A DNA stretch of 64,000 bases. Origin: Macrosoma leucophasiata (lineage: Eukaryota > Arthropoda > Insecta > Lepidoptera > Hedylidae). The stretch is from assembly GCA_036365455.1 (NCBI GenBank), contig JAWQUS010000032.1:14330001-14394000 (forward strand). The letters run 5' to 3'. A program made the position numbers and the translations under genes. The notes under the pieces are model-generated. The model saw nothing but the letters and a program-made list of their open reading frames with translations. It had not been told where the DNA came from and ran no database searches. This document shows, one piece after another, positions 12,021-60,412 of this stretch (position 1 is its first letter; each line of letters starts with the position of its first letter).

Positions 12021-12374
12021 ATCGAATAAGCCGTTTCTGATATTAGCGTGCACAAACACACAGACAAACAGACATTTTTCCGGGATAAAAAGTACCCAGT
12101 GTTGTGCGCCAAAGGTTAAAGTATAATCATACTAAGTTTCATTGTAATCGGACCGGTAGTTTTTATGTGATGCTTGAACAAATAGACAGAAAATTGCCTA
12201 ATCACATATTTGGGTTCGGTATCGATCTAGTAACATCTCCTGGAATTTATTTATAATGTACAGAATTTACACTTCTACAGATTTATTATAAGTATAGATT
12301 ACAAACACACTCCAATTTTATTTAGTTGTAGGTATATACATTTTCTAAAATAGAAATTTTCTAAAATAGAAATA

Positions 12375-13022
12375 GTCTGGAAAAGACTCGGCATCAATAT
12401 TAACGGCGAGTACATCTCCCACCTCCGATTTGCAGATGATATCGTAGTCATGGCTGAGACCCTGGAAGACCTTAGCACAATGCTCAATGACCTCAGTAGG
12501 GCCTCCCAACGAGTGGGCCTTAAAATGAACATGGACAAGACGAAGATCATGTCAAATGTCCATGTTACACCCACTCCTGTTATGGTCGAGGGTACTACAC
12601 TCGAAGTTGTTGACGATTATGTATACCTGGGACAAACGGTCCAGTTAGGTCGGTCCAACTTCGAGAAAGAGGTCAATCGCCGAATCCAACTCGCTTGGGC
12701 AGCGTTCGGGAAGCTGCGGTTCATCTTCTCGTCCGACTTACCGCAGTGTCTCAAGAAAAAGGTCTTTGATCAGTGTGTGTTGCCAGTGATGACTTATGGG
12801 ACAGAAACGTGGTCGCTCACTATGGGCCTCATAAGAAGGCTCAAGGTCACTCAGAGAGCAATGGAGAGAGCTATGCTTGGAGTTTCTCTGCGAGACCGAA
12901 TCAGAAATGAGGAGATCCGCATGAGAACCAAAGTTACCGACATAGCTCACCGAATAGCGAGACTCAAGTGGCAGTGGGCAGGGCACATAGCTCGACGAAC
13001 TGACGGCCGTTGGGGCAGAGCA
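12375..13022 (+). pseudogene. RTE-type reverse transcriptase fragment
   Basis: The frame is open from VWKRLGININGEYISHLRF through FADDIVVMAE (catalytic YADD/FADD box of the palm) to an arginine-rich C-terminal part (LKWQWAGHIARRTDGRWGRA). This is the second half of the RT of an RTE-like non-LTR retroposon, including the thumb and the region usually annotated in moths as endonuclease-reverse transcriptase. The N-terminal endonuclease and RT motifs 0-4 are absent, and the sequence leaves the family after GRA, so the copy is truncated at both ends and cannot be active. Related minus-strand copies are at 45710-46445 and 61366-61795. Molecular role if intact: target-primed reverse transcription in the nucleus. 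No host function is implied. Confidence 0.85.
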
Positions 13023-13058
13023 GTTCATTACATACATTTTACAGAATTTTAACAGTAG

Positions 13059-13236
13059 TATTTATAATTGTTATATATTATTTCGCATTAACACATGCTT
13101 GTGAAATATATTTTATTTTAAAGAAAAATGGAAAGAAAAATTTGACTTCAGGCGAGACTCGAACTCGCGGCCTACTGGGAATCTAGTCCAGCCGCTCTTC
13201 CAATTGAGCTACTGAAGTCCTAAAGGGCTACTGAAG
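13059..13236 (-). mobile_element. Family C element with tRNA-like core
   Basis: Left end ATTATTTCGCATTAACACAT...AAAGAAAAATGGAAAGAAAAA, then a tRNA-like cloverleaf on the minus strand (13144-13219: D-arm GTAGCTCAATTGGAAGAGC, T-arm GCGAGTTCGAGTCTCGC, acceptor ACTTCA/TGAAGT). A 16-bp direct repeat of the tRNA 5' part (GGCTACTGAAGTCCTAAA) follows at the right. The same flank and core occur at 52124-52410. Confidence 0.65.
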
Positions 13237-23167: not shown

Positions 23168-24319
23168 TCATTTCTGACGTACCTCCCCGCGTTGGTTATC
23201 AAGCGTAGACACATGTTTTGCTACCTGTAGGCGACGTCGCTGCGTAGTGGAGCACAAGGCGTACCACGCTGGTGCAGCGTACGTCAACCTAGTTCGAATG
23301 TAGGTATTGTAGCTCCGCAGCTTAGTGCTCAACGGCAGCCTCGACTGCAGTACCGGACGTAGCATCGCTCGAGCAGCCGCCGCCTGGCGCACCGCGTTAT
23401 CCACGGTGGGCACCATGCGTGGCGCTCTGTCGATGGTACACCCAAGGTACTTGACCGACGGCTGCCATAGAACATCTTGGCCGCGGAGCCGTAGTGGTGG
23501 TAGTCGGTAGCGGAGTGTTCGCGTTGCGAAAGCGGCCGTCTTACCCACATTGACGGCCATCCGCCACTTATCGAACCACTCCGGCAATCTATTCAGCAAA
23601 CGTTGCATTTGCTCGTATGCAAAATGCAACCGGGGCGCCGACGTAAAGTAAGCGCTGTCGTCGGCGAACAGGGACAGCATTACATCCCTTTCTCCTTCGC
23701 GCAGATATTCGCGCAGGGTGGGGATGTCGTCTGTATACGCCGCATATAGCGACGGCGACAGACAGCTGCCCTGTGGTACTACTGCACGGATCGGATGGTG
23801 TGGCGATTCCTTCCCATCAATCGAGACGTAGAACCGCCTGCCCTCAAGGAAGCTAGGCACCACCCTGTGTAAGGCGGGATGCAGTGTATCTAATTTCGCC
23901 AAGAGTCCAACATGCCACACCCGGTCGAAGGCTTTCTCGATATCGAGAAATACTCCGACCGAGTACTGACGATTGTTGAACTCATTGGCGAGATAGTGTA
24001 GCACCCTCACCAGCTGGAGCGTCGTGGAGTGTCCCGCGCGGAAGCCAAACTGCTCCTCCCTACATGGAAGGTGTGGCCTCAGCCTCCGCAGCAGGAGATG
24101 CTCGAAGAGCTTGGCGAGGTGTGAGAGGAGCGTGATAGGGCGGTGGCTAGATGGATAGCGGCGGTCCTTGAAAATGACCCGTGCGGAGTATGCCGTTGAA
24201 TAGTCTGGTAAGGGATACCAGGCTACCCCACGGCAGATGCTGCAGCGCGGCGTTAAGGATCCCATCCGGTACCAGGACCGGATGGGATCCCTAACGCCGC
24301 GCTGCAGCCTTCTTGACAT
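23168..24319 (-). pseudogene. Reverse transcriptase of the Jockey-like LINE
   Basis: RT palm and fingers motifs are clear: SHRPITLLSHLAKLFEHLLL (motif 1), EEQFGFRAGHSTTLQLVRVL (motif 2), VGVFLDIEKAFDRVWHVGLL (motif A, catalytic Asp), VVPQGSCLSPSLYAAYTDDI (motif B), MLSLFADDSAYF (motif C, catalytic FADD) and VKYLGCTID (motif E). The first 40 or so codons are chimeric: an inverted repeat at 24239-24308 and a frame change near 24180 displace the usual GPDGIPNAALQ-type segment, which is still readable in another frame (DGILNAALQHLP). Near 23200 a further shift moves the C-terminal NAGRYVRNDVISQDLRVES into the frame ending at 22936. Catalytic residues are present but the gene is broken. Confidence 0.88.
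24239..24308. repeat. Palindrome inside the RT gene
   Basis: 32-bp arms (24239-24270, 24277-24308) with one mismatch and a 6-base spacer. The arm sequence GATCCCATCCGGT is the antisense of the RT codons for PDGI. One arm is the native coding segment and the other is an inverted duplicate inserted after the codons for RLNVKKAA. Confidence 0.88.
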
Positions 24320-43486: not shown

Positions 43487-45094
43487 ATATTATGAAAAAA
43501 ACAGATTTGCTAACATAACTTCAATACCAGATATCCCGGTTCAGACAAACCTCTCGTGCCTCGTCTACCTTCATCATTCTCTTCATACATGCACGCCGAT
43601 TCCTAAGACTTTTGACCCCACCATCAAACAGAACTCGACCTATTTGGTCATGGTAGGTCAGCCTTGGTCTTCCTGGGCCTCTGCAACATTGTATATCGCA
43701 TTGTATTCGCATTGTATATCTGTTTAGTCATTCGCTCAGGGATATCTGGCGCTTTACACTCTCTGCCTACCCCGTTAGGGACCTGGCGTGAAGATACATA
43801 ACATAACTTCAATACCATCATAGTCAAAATTCCTGAGCCATGCTGAAATAATCTTCTTAAACTCATTATTATTTGTATTTTTTATGTTTTTATTTTTATT
43901 TACAAGAGTTTTAAGTAATTTATTGTACAATTGTGTAGTAACTATATCGTACTGCTTTTGAGCAAATCTAGTCTTTGCCCTCGGAACATTTATTCTGTCT
44001 ACTCTTTTTAATGAAGTTGGTAGATAGGGTACTTTTTGGCGATGAAAACGACGCAGACTTTCATATATATACAGCTTGCGTACTGTAAATACTTTAGCTT
44101 TTTCATATAAATCTGTGGTGGGATGTTTAAAAGGAAGGTAGAGCAATACTTTTAATACAGCACGTTGGGCACGTTCTAGAGGGTTAATGTGAGTTTTAGC
44201 CGCGCAGCCCCAAGCACATATGCAATATCTAATGAGACACTCGCATAGAGCTTTATATGTTAGAATAAGTAGCTCATAATCCGCTATGGTTCGAAGAATT
44301 TTGAATACGTATATGAGTTTTCGTACTCTAGAAGCTAATAATGCGATATGCCTGCTCCAGTTTAATTTTTCATCAATCAGGACCCCAAGGTATTTTATGT
44401 CCTCAACACGTGAGAGAACGGCACAGTTACAATTTGTAGAAAGGGTTAAAGAGCGATTGCAAGGGAAGGAATGAATTTTTAAGTCAGTAAGTACAGGATT
44501 ACTTGCAGAGGTAATACTAAAGCACATAAATTTTGTTTTTGCTGTGTTCAGCGATAAAAGACTATTTTCCAACCATGCTGTAACTTTAGCAAGATCTTTT
44601 TCGGCTAGCTCATTGACTATTTGCCAAGTTGGAGCGTGGAATAATAGTACAGTGTCATCAGCAAACATTGAGATGTCCATACCAGACATGGTGAGACAGC
44701 AAAGGTCATTAATGTATACTAAAAAGAGGAGGGAAGCTAAAGTACTTCCTTGTGGTACACCGAAAGTACAAGAAGCACTGTCGCTTTCATGGTCTGCAAG
44801 TCGAACCATTTGTGTTCTACTGACAAGGTAGTCAGCGAACCAATCTCTCGCCACACCCCTTATACCCGCGTTTTCCAATCTTTTAAATAGGATAGGTATT
44901 GACACAGTATCAAACGCTTTCTGAAGATCCAGAAAGACGCCTATGCACTTATTGCCCTTATCGATCGTATCCGTAATTCGAGATGTTAAGTTCAAAACTG
45001 CATCTTCAGTAGACTTTTTTTCGCGAAATCCGTGTTGGTTATTACTTAGCAAGTTATTATTTTCTAGATAGTGCATTAATTTTTTTTTGACCAA
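43487..45094 (-). pseudogene. Reverse transcriptase of the CR1/Jockey-type LINE
   Basis: Long frame with all main RT blocks: NNQHGFREKKSTEDAVLNLT (motif 2), GVFLDLQKAFDTVSIPILFK (motif A), FGVPQGSTLASLLFLVYIND (motif B, with the usual LGPLLF changed to LASLLF), MDISMFADDTVLLFH (motif C, FADD), IKYLGVLIDEKLNWSRHI (motif D/E) and the WGCAAKTHINPLERAQRAVL C-terminal block. The native end reads YDGIEV, then, across the insert, MLANLFFS and a stop at about 43488. Apart from 5' truncation and the insert the frame is intact, so this is a fairly young copy. It lacks endonuclease and gag and cannot move by itself. Confidence 0.9.
43530..43798 (+). mobile_element. Twin-primed LINE fragment insert
   Basis: 269 bp flanked by the perfect 19-bp repeat TAACATAACTTCAATACCA (43511-43529, 43799-43817). 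The right part (about 43729-43798: GGGATATCTGGCGCTTTACA ... GGCGTGAAGATACAT) is the 3' end of the 32329-type LINE in plus orientation. The left part (43530-43728) is the immediately upstream segment of the same LINE in minus orientation (RGPGRPRLTYHDQIGRVLFD on the minus strand). This is the 5'-inversion product of twin priming. Confidence 0.88.
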
Positions 45095-45216
45095 TTTTTC
45101 TAAAACTTTAGAAAGGGTACAAAGAAGGTATTTCTTGCATTTTAAACTGTTTCCCGTAATGCACAGATGCCGTCTTGCTTTCTCTTATTCACTTTCGTTT
45201 GCATGGCGATTGGAGT

Positions 45217-45709: not shown

Positions 45710-46445
45710 ATCATCATCATTTCAGCTAAAAAACGTCCACGGCTGAACAAAGGTCTCCCCCAAAAATTGCCACAACGAACAGTCTTGACCCGCCCTTATT
45801 CAGCGATTGCCCGCGATCTTCACCAGGTCGTCGGTCCATCTTGTGGAAGGGCCTGCCTATGCTTCGTTTTCCGGTACGCGGTCGCCAATCGAGAACTGCT
45901 GTGCCCCAACGGCCGTCAGTTCTTCGAGCTATGTGCCCTGCCCACTGCCACTTGAGTCTCGCTATTCGGTGAGCTATGTCGGTAACTTTGGTTCTCATGC
46001 GGATTTCCTCATTTTTGATTCGATCTCGCAGAGAAACTCCAAGCATAGCTCTCTCCATTGCTCTCTGAGTGACCTTGAGCCTTCTTATGAGGCCCGTAGT
46101 GAGCGACCACGTTTCTGTCCCATAAGTCATCACTAGCATCATGCATATAATATCTCTCTGTCTCACACCTCACCACCAGTTGGATAGGTTTCGAGTTCTG
46201 ATCCTGAAACCGGACCGACATGGTGGCGTTTTCATACAAGCTCCTCAGCACCTCGATGTATCGGTAGTCAACTTGACACATATGGTGTGACTGTAGCACA
46301 GCCCAAATCTCAACCGAATCGAAGGCTTTCTCATAGTCCACGAACGCTAGACATAGGGGCTGATTATACTCTTCTGTCTTCTGTATAACCTGCCGCAGCG
46401 TATGAATGTGGTCTATGGTGCCTTTACGGAAAAAAAAATGTTTAA
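45710..46445 (-). pseudogene. RTE-like LINE copy with (ATG)n tail
   Basis: On the minus strand: IDHIHTLRQVIQKTEEYNQP and CLAFVDYEKAFDSVEIWAVL (RT motif A), then YIEVLRSLYENATMSVRFQD. An internal deletion joins VVRCETER to the segment MTYGTETWSLTTGLIRRLK (motifs B-D, including FADD, are lost). It continues KWQWAGHIARRTDGRWGTAV and a 3' end GGGGGAGACCTTTGTTCAGC, then CGTGGACG, with an ATG-repeat tail at 45710-45722. Same family as 12375-13022. Confidence 0.85.
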
Positions 46446-47104
46446 TAGTATCAAACAAAAACAAATTCTTCTCTTATACTTTAATCACTCTTTTCGTTAA
46501 TTGTCTACTATTTTGAACCTAAAGTATTGTTTCTATTTTCAACCTAGAATAATAATAAACAAAAAAGATAACCGCTATAAAACGTATTTTAGATAAAAAC
46601 AAAATACACACTTGGGATCATAATTGTCAAACATATTCTTCTCCTAATGAAGTTAAAGTTCTTACAAAAATCTACTTCCATTTAAGAGAAAATTATCATC
46701 TTCTTTTATTGAAGTGAAAATATTAATATCAAACAAGATAATATTGCATTATTCAACTTATTATACCTAGTAGATATAGGTACGTAAAATAAGTCCATAA
46801 TATTTCACTAGAAACTGATTTATTCATCTTGAATCATTAAACTCACTCTAACCTCATTTTTTTCGTATTTCTGCTGGCGATCTTTCGTAAAGTAAACACA
46901 ACATTAATTGGCGTTGTTCGGATTGGCGTGTGCGGGACTCGCGCGCCCATTAAACTGCCAAATTCGAAAGTGAATATTCGCATTCGCATTCGCGAATATC
47001 AACGGCAGATATTCGCATTCGCGAATGTCTATAAATTGATATTCGTTACATCACTAATACATACTGAATAAAGCGATATTATTTTAGCAAGAGTACCTAC
47101 CTAA
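46446..47104. other. No gene seen
   Basis: AT-rich. 46972-47050 is built from ATTCGCATTCGCGAAT palindromic units (see findings). Confidence 0.4.
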
Positions 47105-52123: not shown

Positions 52124-52410
52124 TTTATATTATTTCGCATTAACACATGCTTGTGAAATATATTTTATTTTTAAAGAAAAAAATAAAATATATTTCTTTA
52201 TGCCTAACTAGCATAGTTGGTAATAGATGGCGCTGCTGCTACCATAAAGCAATGCAATAGATGTGAAGGAAAAATTTGACAAATCAGGCAGGGCTTCAGT
52301 AGCTCAATTGGAAGAGCGGCTGGACTAGATTCCCAGTAGGTCGCGAGTTCGAGTCTCGCCTGAAGTCAATTTTTTCTTTCCATTTTTCTTTAAAAATAAA
52401 AAATATTTCC
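52124..52410 (+). mobile_element. Family C element with tRNA-like core, best copy
   Basis: TTGTTTTATATTATTTCGCA at the left, a TAAAATATATTTCTTTATGC segment, GATGGCGCTGCTGCTACC, then a 76-base tRNA-like cloverleaf (52292-52367) and AATTTTTTCTTTCCATTTTT, the inverse of the AAAGAAAAATGGAAAG flank seen at 13125. Cloverleaf: acceptor GGCTTCA/TGAAGTC, D-stem GCTC/GAGC, T-arm GCGAG TTCGAGT CTCGC. The anticodon stem has one mismatch around loop CTAGATT. It could be a pol III-competent pseudo-tRNA. Confidence 0.65.
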
Positions 52411-59066: not shown

Positions 59067-59518
59067 CTTTAAATAATTTAATTTTACAATAATAAAGTGA
59101 TTTGATTATCTTAACCTATTACGTATTTTCTAAAAAATTAAATTAGTAAATTAAAGCTATTTTTTTGCTCATTATTATGGTATACGGGAGCCAAATTAAT
59201 ACGGCCGCAAATAAGAGTTGCTGGCTGTTAAAGATAAAATAATATAACTAAAAATACTTGGGACCAAATTTTGATAGGCAACCTAGTGGATATAATATAT
59301 TCTCTAGATTATAATGTTGCGTAAAAATTAGGTTTGCGGCATATCTGGATGAACGAAATGATTCTGCAGCGGGATCTTAACCTATGTCTTGAAAATTTCG
59401 AAATTAGTCGGTGTTGTCTGTCAAAATGTCAAACACATTATATGTGCTGTGTAACTAGGCAGTGGTAAAATGAAATAAAACTATTTTTACGGATTTATCT
59501 CGCGTATATTAAACTAAA

Positions 59519-60007
59519 ATGATTTTTAAAATCAACCATTTCATTCATCAGTATTTAAGACCCATTAAAAGTAATATTCCATTACAAAATTCTGGCATTT
59601 ATAAATTAGATTGTGATTGTGGACTCTCATATATTGGTCAAACGAAGAGAGCTGTATCCACCCGCGTTAAAGAGCACATTGCTGATGTCAAAAACCGAAG
59701 AACAGGGAGGTCTGCAGTCTGTGAACACATAGCGGATAAGCCAAACCATTACATCCGGTTTGATAAAATTCAAATACTCGCTAGAGAACACAAACCCATT
59801 CCACGAATGGTACGCGAGGCTATTGAAATTAAAAAACACCCAAATTTCAATAGAGAAGATGGATGGCGATTATCAACATCATGGGATCCCATACTTAGCA
59901 AGATTAAATCCCAGCCGCAGCAGTCTGCAAGACCTCAAGATACCATAAGTAATTATTGTGTTAATCCTGAACGCTACGCAAGGCGTTTACGAAATCGATG
60001 GAGGTAG
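59519..60007 (+). CDS. GIY-YIG endonuclease domain of a PLE
   Basis: 162 codons, uninterrupted. Residues 26-28 are GIY and 38-40 YIG (SGIYKLDCDCGLSYIGQTKR), with the CxC pair (32, 34) typical of PLE endonucleases between them. Arg49 (STRVKEHI), the EH pair (52-53), a His near VCEHIADKPNH, and the acidic NREDGWRLSTSW block (catalytic Glu region and terminal Trp) follow. The C-terminal 35 residues are Gln/Arg-rich. The first six codons come from the inverted terminal repeat, so the ATG is accidental; the natural protein would have an upstream reverse transcriptase that is absent here. If expressed, it could only nick DNA. In the family the domain cuts the target to prime reverse transcription. 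The protein is truncated but the domain looks complete. Confidence 0.85.
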   Translation: MIFKINHFIHQYLRPIKSNIPLQNSGIYKLDCDCGLSYIGQTKRAVSTRVKEHIADVKNRRTGRSAVCEHIADKPNHYIRFDKIQILAREHKPIPRMVREAIEIKKHPNFNREDGWRLSTSWDPILSKIKSQPQQSARPQDTISNYCVNPERYARRLRNRWR

Positions 60008-60072
60008 CTACATATAATTTTTCAAACTTCTGTCAGACAAATGTCACCTCAGTCTGCCCGGGACCACGGAAG

Positions 60073-60093
60073 CTGAAAAGCGACCGAAACGTC
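60073..60093 (+). promoter_or_regulatory. Hammerhead-like core at the PLE repeat boundary
   Basis: CTGAAAAGCGACCGAAACGTC, one base short of the CTGANGA box, then CGAAAC and GTC, the order of a hammerhead ribozyme core. The GTC (60091-60093) lies two bases before the 66-bp repeat begins. PLEs are known to carry such ribozymes. Stem I and stem II pairing is weak by eye, so activity is doubtful. Confidence 0.3.
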
Positions 60094-60412
60094 GGGTTGA
60101 TTTTAAAAATCATTTTAGTTTAATATACGCGAGATAAATCCGTAAAAATAGTTTTATTTCAATGAGTGTAGCTCGCGAAAACCTAAGAACATATCAGTGG
60201 TAAAATGGTTTCACCATAGAGGTTCGTTATGTTTGCGTCATGAAATCCATGGTGTTTCTGAAAACAATATACGCACGGCCGCGCGCGGCTCGCGACAGTC
60301 GGCGGCCGCGCGCGTCTATCGCTAGCCGCGGAATCGGTTCCATACATTTTCATACTGCATCTATAGCCGCGCGCAGCCGACGACTGTCGCGACCCGCGGA
60401 ATAGCACCTTTA

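Follow-up and report, generated by a model that had tools for sequence, protein, structure and literature searches.

The window analysed here, the whole 64,000-nucleotide stretch from Macrosoma leucophasiata, contains a 722-bp insert (59473-60194) with perfect inverted ends, extra bases on one side only and an endonuclease reading frame between. The locus raises two questions: whether the insert records the truncated integration of a Penelope-like element (PLE) or is a small unit that is amplified as such, and why only one of its two ends carries a tail. Penelope of Drosophila virilis likewise has inverted pLTR-like ends and a one-sided extension of ~34 bp.

Structure and family of the insertion

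The insert is bracketed by the target duplication CAGTGGTAAAATG, identical at 13 of 13 positions in its two copies (59460-59472 and 60195-60207). This agrees with the earlier note, which was based on the sequence alone; the length of 722 bp and the loss of reverse transcriptase (RT) given there are also borne out, as RT is absent from the 164-codon frame. The inverted ends, described in the note as a perfect 66-bp repeat, are indeed perfect; they are 67 nt long (59471-59537 against 60095-60161, 100% complementarity). The outer TG of the left arm (59471-59472) may equally belong to the target duplication, as its last two bases, which gives arms of 65-67 nt. Similarly, the extra bases are found on the right side only (60162-60194), with the first base of ATG as their exact start, and number 33 where the note gives 34. 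Two further nucleotides to the right of the tail (CA) can be assigned either to the tail or to the target duplication, giving a tail of 33-35 nt. The parts of the insertion are as follows.

59460-59472, no strand: target-site duplication, left copy, 13 bp
59473-59537, minus strand: no-tail arm, an inverted pLTR end, unit positions about -3 (-1 counting the TG at 59471-59472) to -67
59538-59542, no strand: filler of 5 nt between the two cDNA arms, in a junction that occurs nowhere else in the genome
59543-60161, plus strand: body of the tail arm, C-terminal endonuclease coding sequence and pLTR, 5'-truncated, unit positions -619 to -1; the match to the unit starts at 59543
59513-60007, plus strand: open frame of 164 codons (59513-60004) and stop (60005-60007), the endonuclease end of the PLE protein
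60049-60053, plus strand: TCAGT motif, its A at unit position -111
60095-60161, plus strand: right pLTR end, complementary to the left arm in the inverted-repeat comparison
60162-60194, plus strand: tail, ATG and 10 codons of the PLE ORF (MSVARENLRTY), the start of the ORF of autonomous copies
60195-60207, no strand: target-site duplication, right copy, 13 bp

Start site 1 of reverse transcription, which is at the start codon, is marked by the outer end of the no-tail arm (the 59473 side), and start site 2 by the outer end of the tail (the 60194 side). At its N-terminus the open frame is fused to antisense pLTR sequence; it probably does not function as a gene. A GC-rich imperfect inverted repeat with 36-nt arms (89%) lies immediately to the right of the insertion, at 60276-60398.

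The genome (616 Mb in 61 contigs) was searched with the insert, and 40 of 1,944 first-look candidates were scored. Autonomous copies of the element occur as tandem units of 2,629 bp, a spacing observed in L020, L021, L022 and L028. The units have an 832-codon frame (824 aa from the ATG), with RVT_1 at 346-530 (E 2.3e-9), that ends in the same endonuclease sequence as the window copy. The Penelope-like identity given in the earlier note is supported: the pLTR ends are inverted, and the tail, on one side only, has the published length. The ORF of the full-length relatives combines RT with that endonuclease end and, judged by sequence, does not appear to represent an RT of another class. The window copy is identical to autonomous copies over 652 nt, a stretch in which the endonuclease piece lies, and is consequently recent.

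The endonuclease piece of the window copy is matched by 47 of 60 candidate proteins. Names are attached to 23 of the matches: 22 are from Lepidoptera, and the remaining one is labelled E. coli. Two matches to the endonuclease end are Parnassius mnemosyne proteins named GIY-YIG, and a GIY-YIG motif, GIYKLDCDCGLSYIGQT, can be read by eye in the PLE endonuclease end. The protein named as an E. coli GIY-YIG protein (P0026) has a 43% match to the insect PLE piece; this is perhaps insect DNA inside a bacterial record. A Pfam search with the window endonuclease piece gives no family at E <= 0.1, while the full-length frame gives RVT_1 and no GIY-YIG match. The endonuclease piece has no match in a PDB sequence search, and a search of phage records and viral contigs gives no match. 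An Rfam search of 59400-60300 finds no hammerhead up to E 5; a degenerate hammerhead-core-like stretch, CTGAAAAG...CGAAACGTC at 60073-60093, is visible by eye only. The predicted RNA fold of the pLTR and tail, for a stretch that extended into the flank beyond the tail, is not unusual (z -1.31).

Domain order, pLTR structure and relatives together make it highly probable that this is a PLE of the Penelope/Poseidon type. In itself the insert is unremarkable, a PLE copy of a type abundant in insects that is recent and badly truncated. Other RT fragments are present in the window at 12354-13052, 23168-24319, 43775-45184 and 46009-46473 (RVT_1, the last below the Pfam cut-off); these are probably LINE remnants. 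Two predictions of tRNA-Ser(AGA), at 13143-13219 on the minus strand and 52292-52368 on the plus strand, are possibly tRNA-derived repeats.

Copies elsewhere in the genome

The tail recurs in thousands of copies, so its absence elsewhere, which the note gave as a refuting result, is not what the genome shows. With at most one mismatch, a 34-mer spanning the pLTR end and the tail occurs 3,239 times in the genome, far more often than chance would give (reversed control 0), and a 37-mer from the pLTR end occurs 4,070 times; the first 100 places of each were listed, all of them exact. More than 3,000 tail-bearing copies in one genome constitute a natural record of integration events.

A tail-selected sample was taken from contig C1, using 82 of the 84 tail matches listed there; C1:8967830 (held in L024) and C1:25140220 were left out. 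Among the 82 rows, 55 are head to head and clear of the edges of the sequence read at the locus and nine are single-ended, while seven are unresolved, seven have too little sequence and four are head to head but cut by such an edge. In 48 of the 55, the inverted arm starts at -11 to +6 relative to the ATG and has no tail. Two more are the two ends of a single locus, L060, with tail-like starts at +33 and +43; the remaining five have other starts (-24, -41, -210 and two far-off matches, which are probably spurious). Later counts use 57 copies, the 48 head to head and the nine single-ended. The 25 not kept consist of 11 cut by the edge of the sequence read, seven unresolved, five with odd left matches and the two L060 rows. 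The 48 include one duplicated pair, L039 and L040 (C1:1886477 and C1:1889349), 2.9 kb apart with arms and target duplication in common; this is probably a later segmental duplication.

Target duplications of at least 10 bp, mostly 12-13 bp, are found in 49 of the 57 kept copies. Where a duplication is found among the 57 copies, 48 of which are head to head, it is 8-16 bp long, with a mode of 12-13. Tails end at +32 to +37 in 43 of the 49 copies with a duplication of at least 10 bp; the range in the C1 sample is +27 to +40.

These copies bear on the nature of the insert. According to one reading it is the non-autonomous PLE derivative with endonuclease and ends that was raised in the earlier note, and autonomous copies would multiply it as one unit. 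Eleven other copies of near-equal length (715-745 bp) would fit this reading. However, each look-alike, examined by eye, has its own junction, inverted arm and target duplication (10-14 bp), and junctions, arm lengths and duplications all differ; a 33-mer across the junction of the window copy occurs once in the genome, even with up to 3 mismatches. The similar length is explained by the search, which ranked copies by their likeness to the query. Truncation points are widely spread in the tail-selected sample. Retention of the endonuclease in the window copy is incidental, since only 12 of 105 arms in the 57 classified tail-bearing copies exceed 300 nt (four tail arms and eight no-tail arms). 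A derivative of this kind is very improbable, and the note's other proposal, a snapshot of truncated PLE integration, is the one that the unique junctions support. A DNA transposon or MITE whose terminal inverted repeats measure 67 bp would also have perfect inverted ends and a target duplication, but the ends here consist of pLTR sequence from a retroelement that encodes RT and endonuclease, arm length differs between copies, ORF sequence is present at one end, and single-ended insertions occur without an inverted arm. This is the least credible of the readings considered, with hardly any probability left to it.

Tails in two-ended insertions of four families

Pairs of ends were also chosen blind to tails, either by their pLTR ends or because both arms reach the endonuclease. 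For the family of the window copy (family A), all 27 adjacent minus/plus pairs within 4 kb were taken from 100 listed of the 4,070 pLTR ends. A first pass gives 24 pairs with one exact tail and three without; on reading, the three (L110-L112) have one tail each, with mismatch. The opposite ends of the 24 pairs have no tail. Exactly one tail is consequently present in 27 of 27 pairs.

Family B, with a unit of 2,611 bp, was found via a Phthorimaea protein, and 26 pairs were taken from 100 listed of its 442 pLTR ends. At no more than one mismatch, 17 pairs have one tail, eight have none and one has two. The eight have one tail each on reading, with more mismatches; in the apparent two-tailed case, a tandem array, one of the counted ends lies within the array, and the outer ends of the array (L149 and L150) give one tail. 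No tail is present at the 17 opposite ends. With the array judged by its outer ends, all 26 pairs have exactly one tail.

In family C (unit 2,636 bp), eight pairs were taken since both arms reach the endonuclease, and the tail is defined only as the ATG-led sequence common to eight ends with different flanks. Exactly one tail is present in seven; in the eighth pair (L151/L152) the left end is unreadable. Of the two pairs taken from family D (unit 2,697 bp), both have exactly one tail.

All 62 readable pairs are thus one-tailed. If the two ends drew their start sites independently, with one common probability for both ends, at most half of the pairs would be one-tailed, and the observed result would have P of at most ~2e-19. 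The one known exception to the rule comes from the tail-selected sample: L060 (C1:20484700-20485700) has tail-like sequence at both ends, with more of the ORF included at the right end, and shows no visible target duplication. These counts suggest that, almost without exception, an inverted insertion of this kind draws on both start points and on each of them a single time. The literature searched, from which the older Drosophila papers and Craig et al. 2021 were absent, contains no statement of a strict one-tail rule; the rule is apparently undescribed before.

In every family the two start points lie ~33 nt apart. Family A has a median of 35.5 and a range of 28-51 (40 copies, by a rough measure), family B has 27-36 except for L144 (22, with an internal deletion), family C has 31-37 with L161/L162 set aside, and family D has 31-35. 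In L161/L162 (C27:18086726-18089230) ~25 consecutive A residues separate the no-tail pLTR end from the target duplication; this is perhaps due to slippage or added bases.

Most of the pairs checked share one target duplication. In family A it is at least 10 bp long in 18 of the 21 pairs checked (out of 27), L038, L041 and L096 being without it. In family B, where the check took in the array and eight other pairs out of 26, five of the eight and the array share at least 12 bp and the other three share 6-7 bp. In families C and D, all nine readable pairs share 12-15 bp.

The inverted arrangement could in principle result from two separate PLE insertions or from rearrangement after insertion, and nested and duplicated copies do exist (L039/L040, L054). 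Against this, one duplication of at least 10 bp brackets both arms in 41 of the 48 head-to-head copies on C1, as do the 12-15 bp in the nine pairs of families C and D; moreover, independent insertions would not yield the one-tail rule. Such an origin has only a very small probability.

L165/L166 (C30:17484991-17502106) is a head-to-head tandem array of family C, ~17 kb long with several full units per arm; it is bracketed by a 15-bp duplication and has one tail, as if it were one single insertion. Family B has a similar arrangement at C5:7800430-7812290, with a 12-bp duplication. Comparison of units within four tandem arrays, as a means of separating rolling-circle from tandem templates, is uninformative.

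Single-ended copies are also found. Among 22 unpaired pLTR ends without an exact tail, five have the tail on the opposite arm (L113, L116, L130, L133 and L134) and three have a mutated or short tail of their own (L115, L123 and L127). Four are single-ended and tail-less with a duplication of at least 10 bp (L114, L120, L122 and L129); the other ten are unresolved. Single-ended copies include the nine with a tail from the C1 sample and at least four without, which means that either start site can serve alone.

A proposed integration model and known Penelope-like elements

The window insert has two arms, both from the region of the ORF start, which lie head to head between the two copies of a 13-bp target duplication. 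The start codon is where one of them begins; the other has its beginning ~33 nt into the ORF. There is good reason for confidence that it is a single twin-primed, truncated integration of an autonomous PLE. In the integration proposed, the PLE protein would cut both target strands ~12-13 bp apart and leave 3' overhangs, and each exposed 3' end would prime reverse transcription internally on the element RNA, with the ORF-start site serving one strand and the tail site the other. Synthesis of the cDNAs would continue toward the RNA 5' end (~-112) or stop early; end joining, helped by microhomology or leaving a small number of filler bases, would connect the cDNA ends, and fill-in would produce the target duplication. 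For the window copy, the tail arm would have extended 619 nt past the ATG into the endonuclease region, the other arm stopping after 65-67 nt. A tail arm of 619 nt implies that the template, for instance a tandem transcript, contained further element sequence upstream of the pLTR; the same would be needed for any arm beyond ~-112.

The inner ends of the arms are relevant to the template. They lie at -94 to -113 in 26 of 105 arms, of which 14 lie at -108 to -113, beside the TCAGT at 60049-60053, which we take to be an initiator-like motif. Read from the cDNA ends and this motif, the 5' end of the RNA would be at about -112. At 48 junctions the two arms overlap by at least 1 nt in 24 cases, are blunt in seven and have filler in 17; the pLTR palindrome adds to the overlap count. 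This mixture would be expected from end joining. In 47 pairs (L040 dropped as a duplicate of L039), the no-tail arm is longer by more than 5 nt in 27 and the tail arm in 14 (P 0.06). This is suggestive at most of a longer no-tail arm, as a leading and trailing pair on one RNA might predict; the arm lengths of the 47 pairs are not correlated (Spearman -0.22, P 0.13).

From the one-tail rule we infer that the enzyme uses two start sites on the RNA, ~33 nt from each other, and that priming on each of the two cut strands takes one of them. The one-each rule would follow from a dimer with two active sites on one RNA, from use of the sites in sequence, or from RNA processing between steps. A possible form of the first is obligate paired reverse transcription. 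In this form a dimeric enzyme would hold one RNA, with active sites ~33 nt apart (~three A-form turns) and one strand at each site. The tail would then be the footprint of the second, trailing enzyme and not an optional feature, and head-to-head arrays would be single insertions from multimeric or circular RNA. This is put forward tentatively, as an idea that may well prove wrong. With sequential priming, the choice of site would be set by order in time, the first strand always taking the tail site and the second the start-codon site or the other way round, or by RNA processing between the steps, and not by two enzymes acting simultaneously on one RNA. It yields the same rule, and the RNA of an Anolis PLE has a hammerhead at the ORF start (PMC11167929). 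Nevertheless, the Anolis enzyme has no difference in start sites between strands in vitro (PMC11167929), and single-ended copies with a tail (nine) and without (at least four) indicate that neither site is obligatory for the first strand. Sequential priming is a serious candidate, whose likelihood comes near to an even chance without reaching it. Whichever of these orders applies, twin-primed integration from two sites remains the preferred reading of the insert.

Many features of the window family are shared with Poseidon PAc of Anolis carolinensis. The PAc protein cuts and extends both target strands, targets are AT-rich, copies occur in tandem, and reverse transcription starts at two adjacent internal RNA sites with the tail between them (PMC11167929). 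In contrast to the window family, with starts near +1 and +34, the commonest start in PAc is 111-118 nt inside the ORF; PAc also has a hammerhead that works with the protein, whereas none was recognised in the window copy (PMC11167929). Top-strand and bottom-strand start sites do not differ in the Anolis assay, and the main text reports no pairing of strand with site (PMC11167929); the one-each rule is accordingly not visible there, which counts against the model. PLE tails are 30-40 bp in general and PLEs can carry a hammerhead; the endonuclease of D. virilis Penelope, in the brief citation given there, needs a tail of 30-40 bp (PMC11167929). The one-tail rule in four families indicates that start sites of the kind seen in vitro are used one per strand, which is a constraint on any integration model and is testable with the published enzyme assay. 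It suggests a clear, quantitative regularity that helps to explain PLE insertion.

Pen2a_Av and other Penelope families of Adineta vaga resemble the window family in several respects: the ORF encodes RT and endonuclease, there are pLTRs with an inverted one next to them, some copies are 5'-truncated, and target duplications measure 9-10 bp (PMC3846280). Also described there are inverted pLTRs with a 31-bp tail into the ORF on one of them and a 9-bp duplication; copies are few and the tail is termed optional (PMC3846280). The window family, in contrast, is very large and has exactly one tail in each readable pair chosen blind to tails; its two starts are the start codon and a point ~33 nt into the ORF.

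In the monarch butterfly, penelope-1_dPle is a lepidopteran PLE that, like the window family, has thousands of short copies and very few intact ones (PMC8848866). There, 3029 of 3566 fragments hold only the 5' end, which the authors interpret as genomic deletions (PMC8848866). By analogy with the window family, reverse transcription that begins internally, close to where the ORF starts, would make such fragments at the time of insertion; short fragments of PLEs that hold only the 5' end, elsewhere read as genomic deletions, may thus be ordinary insertion products.
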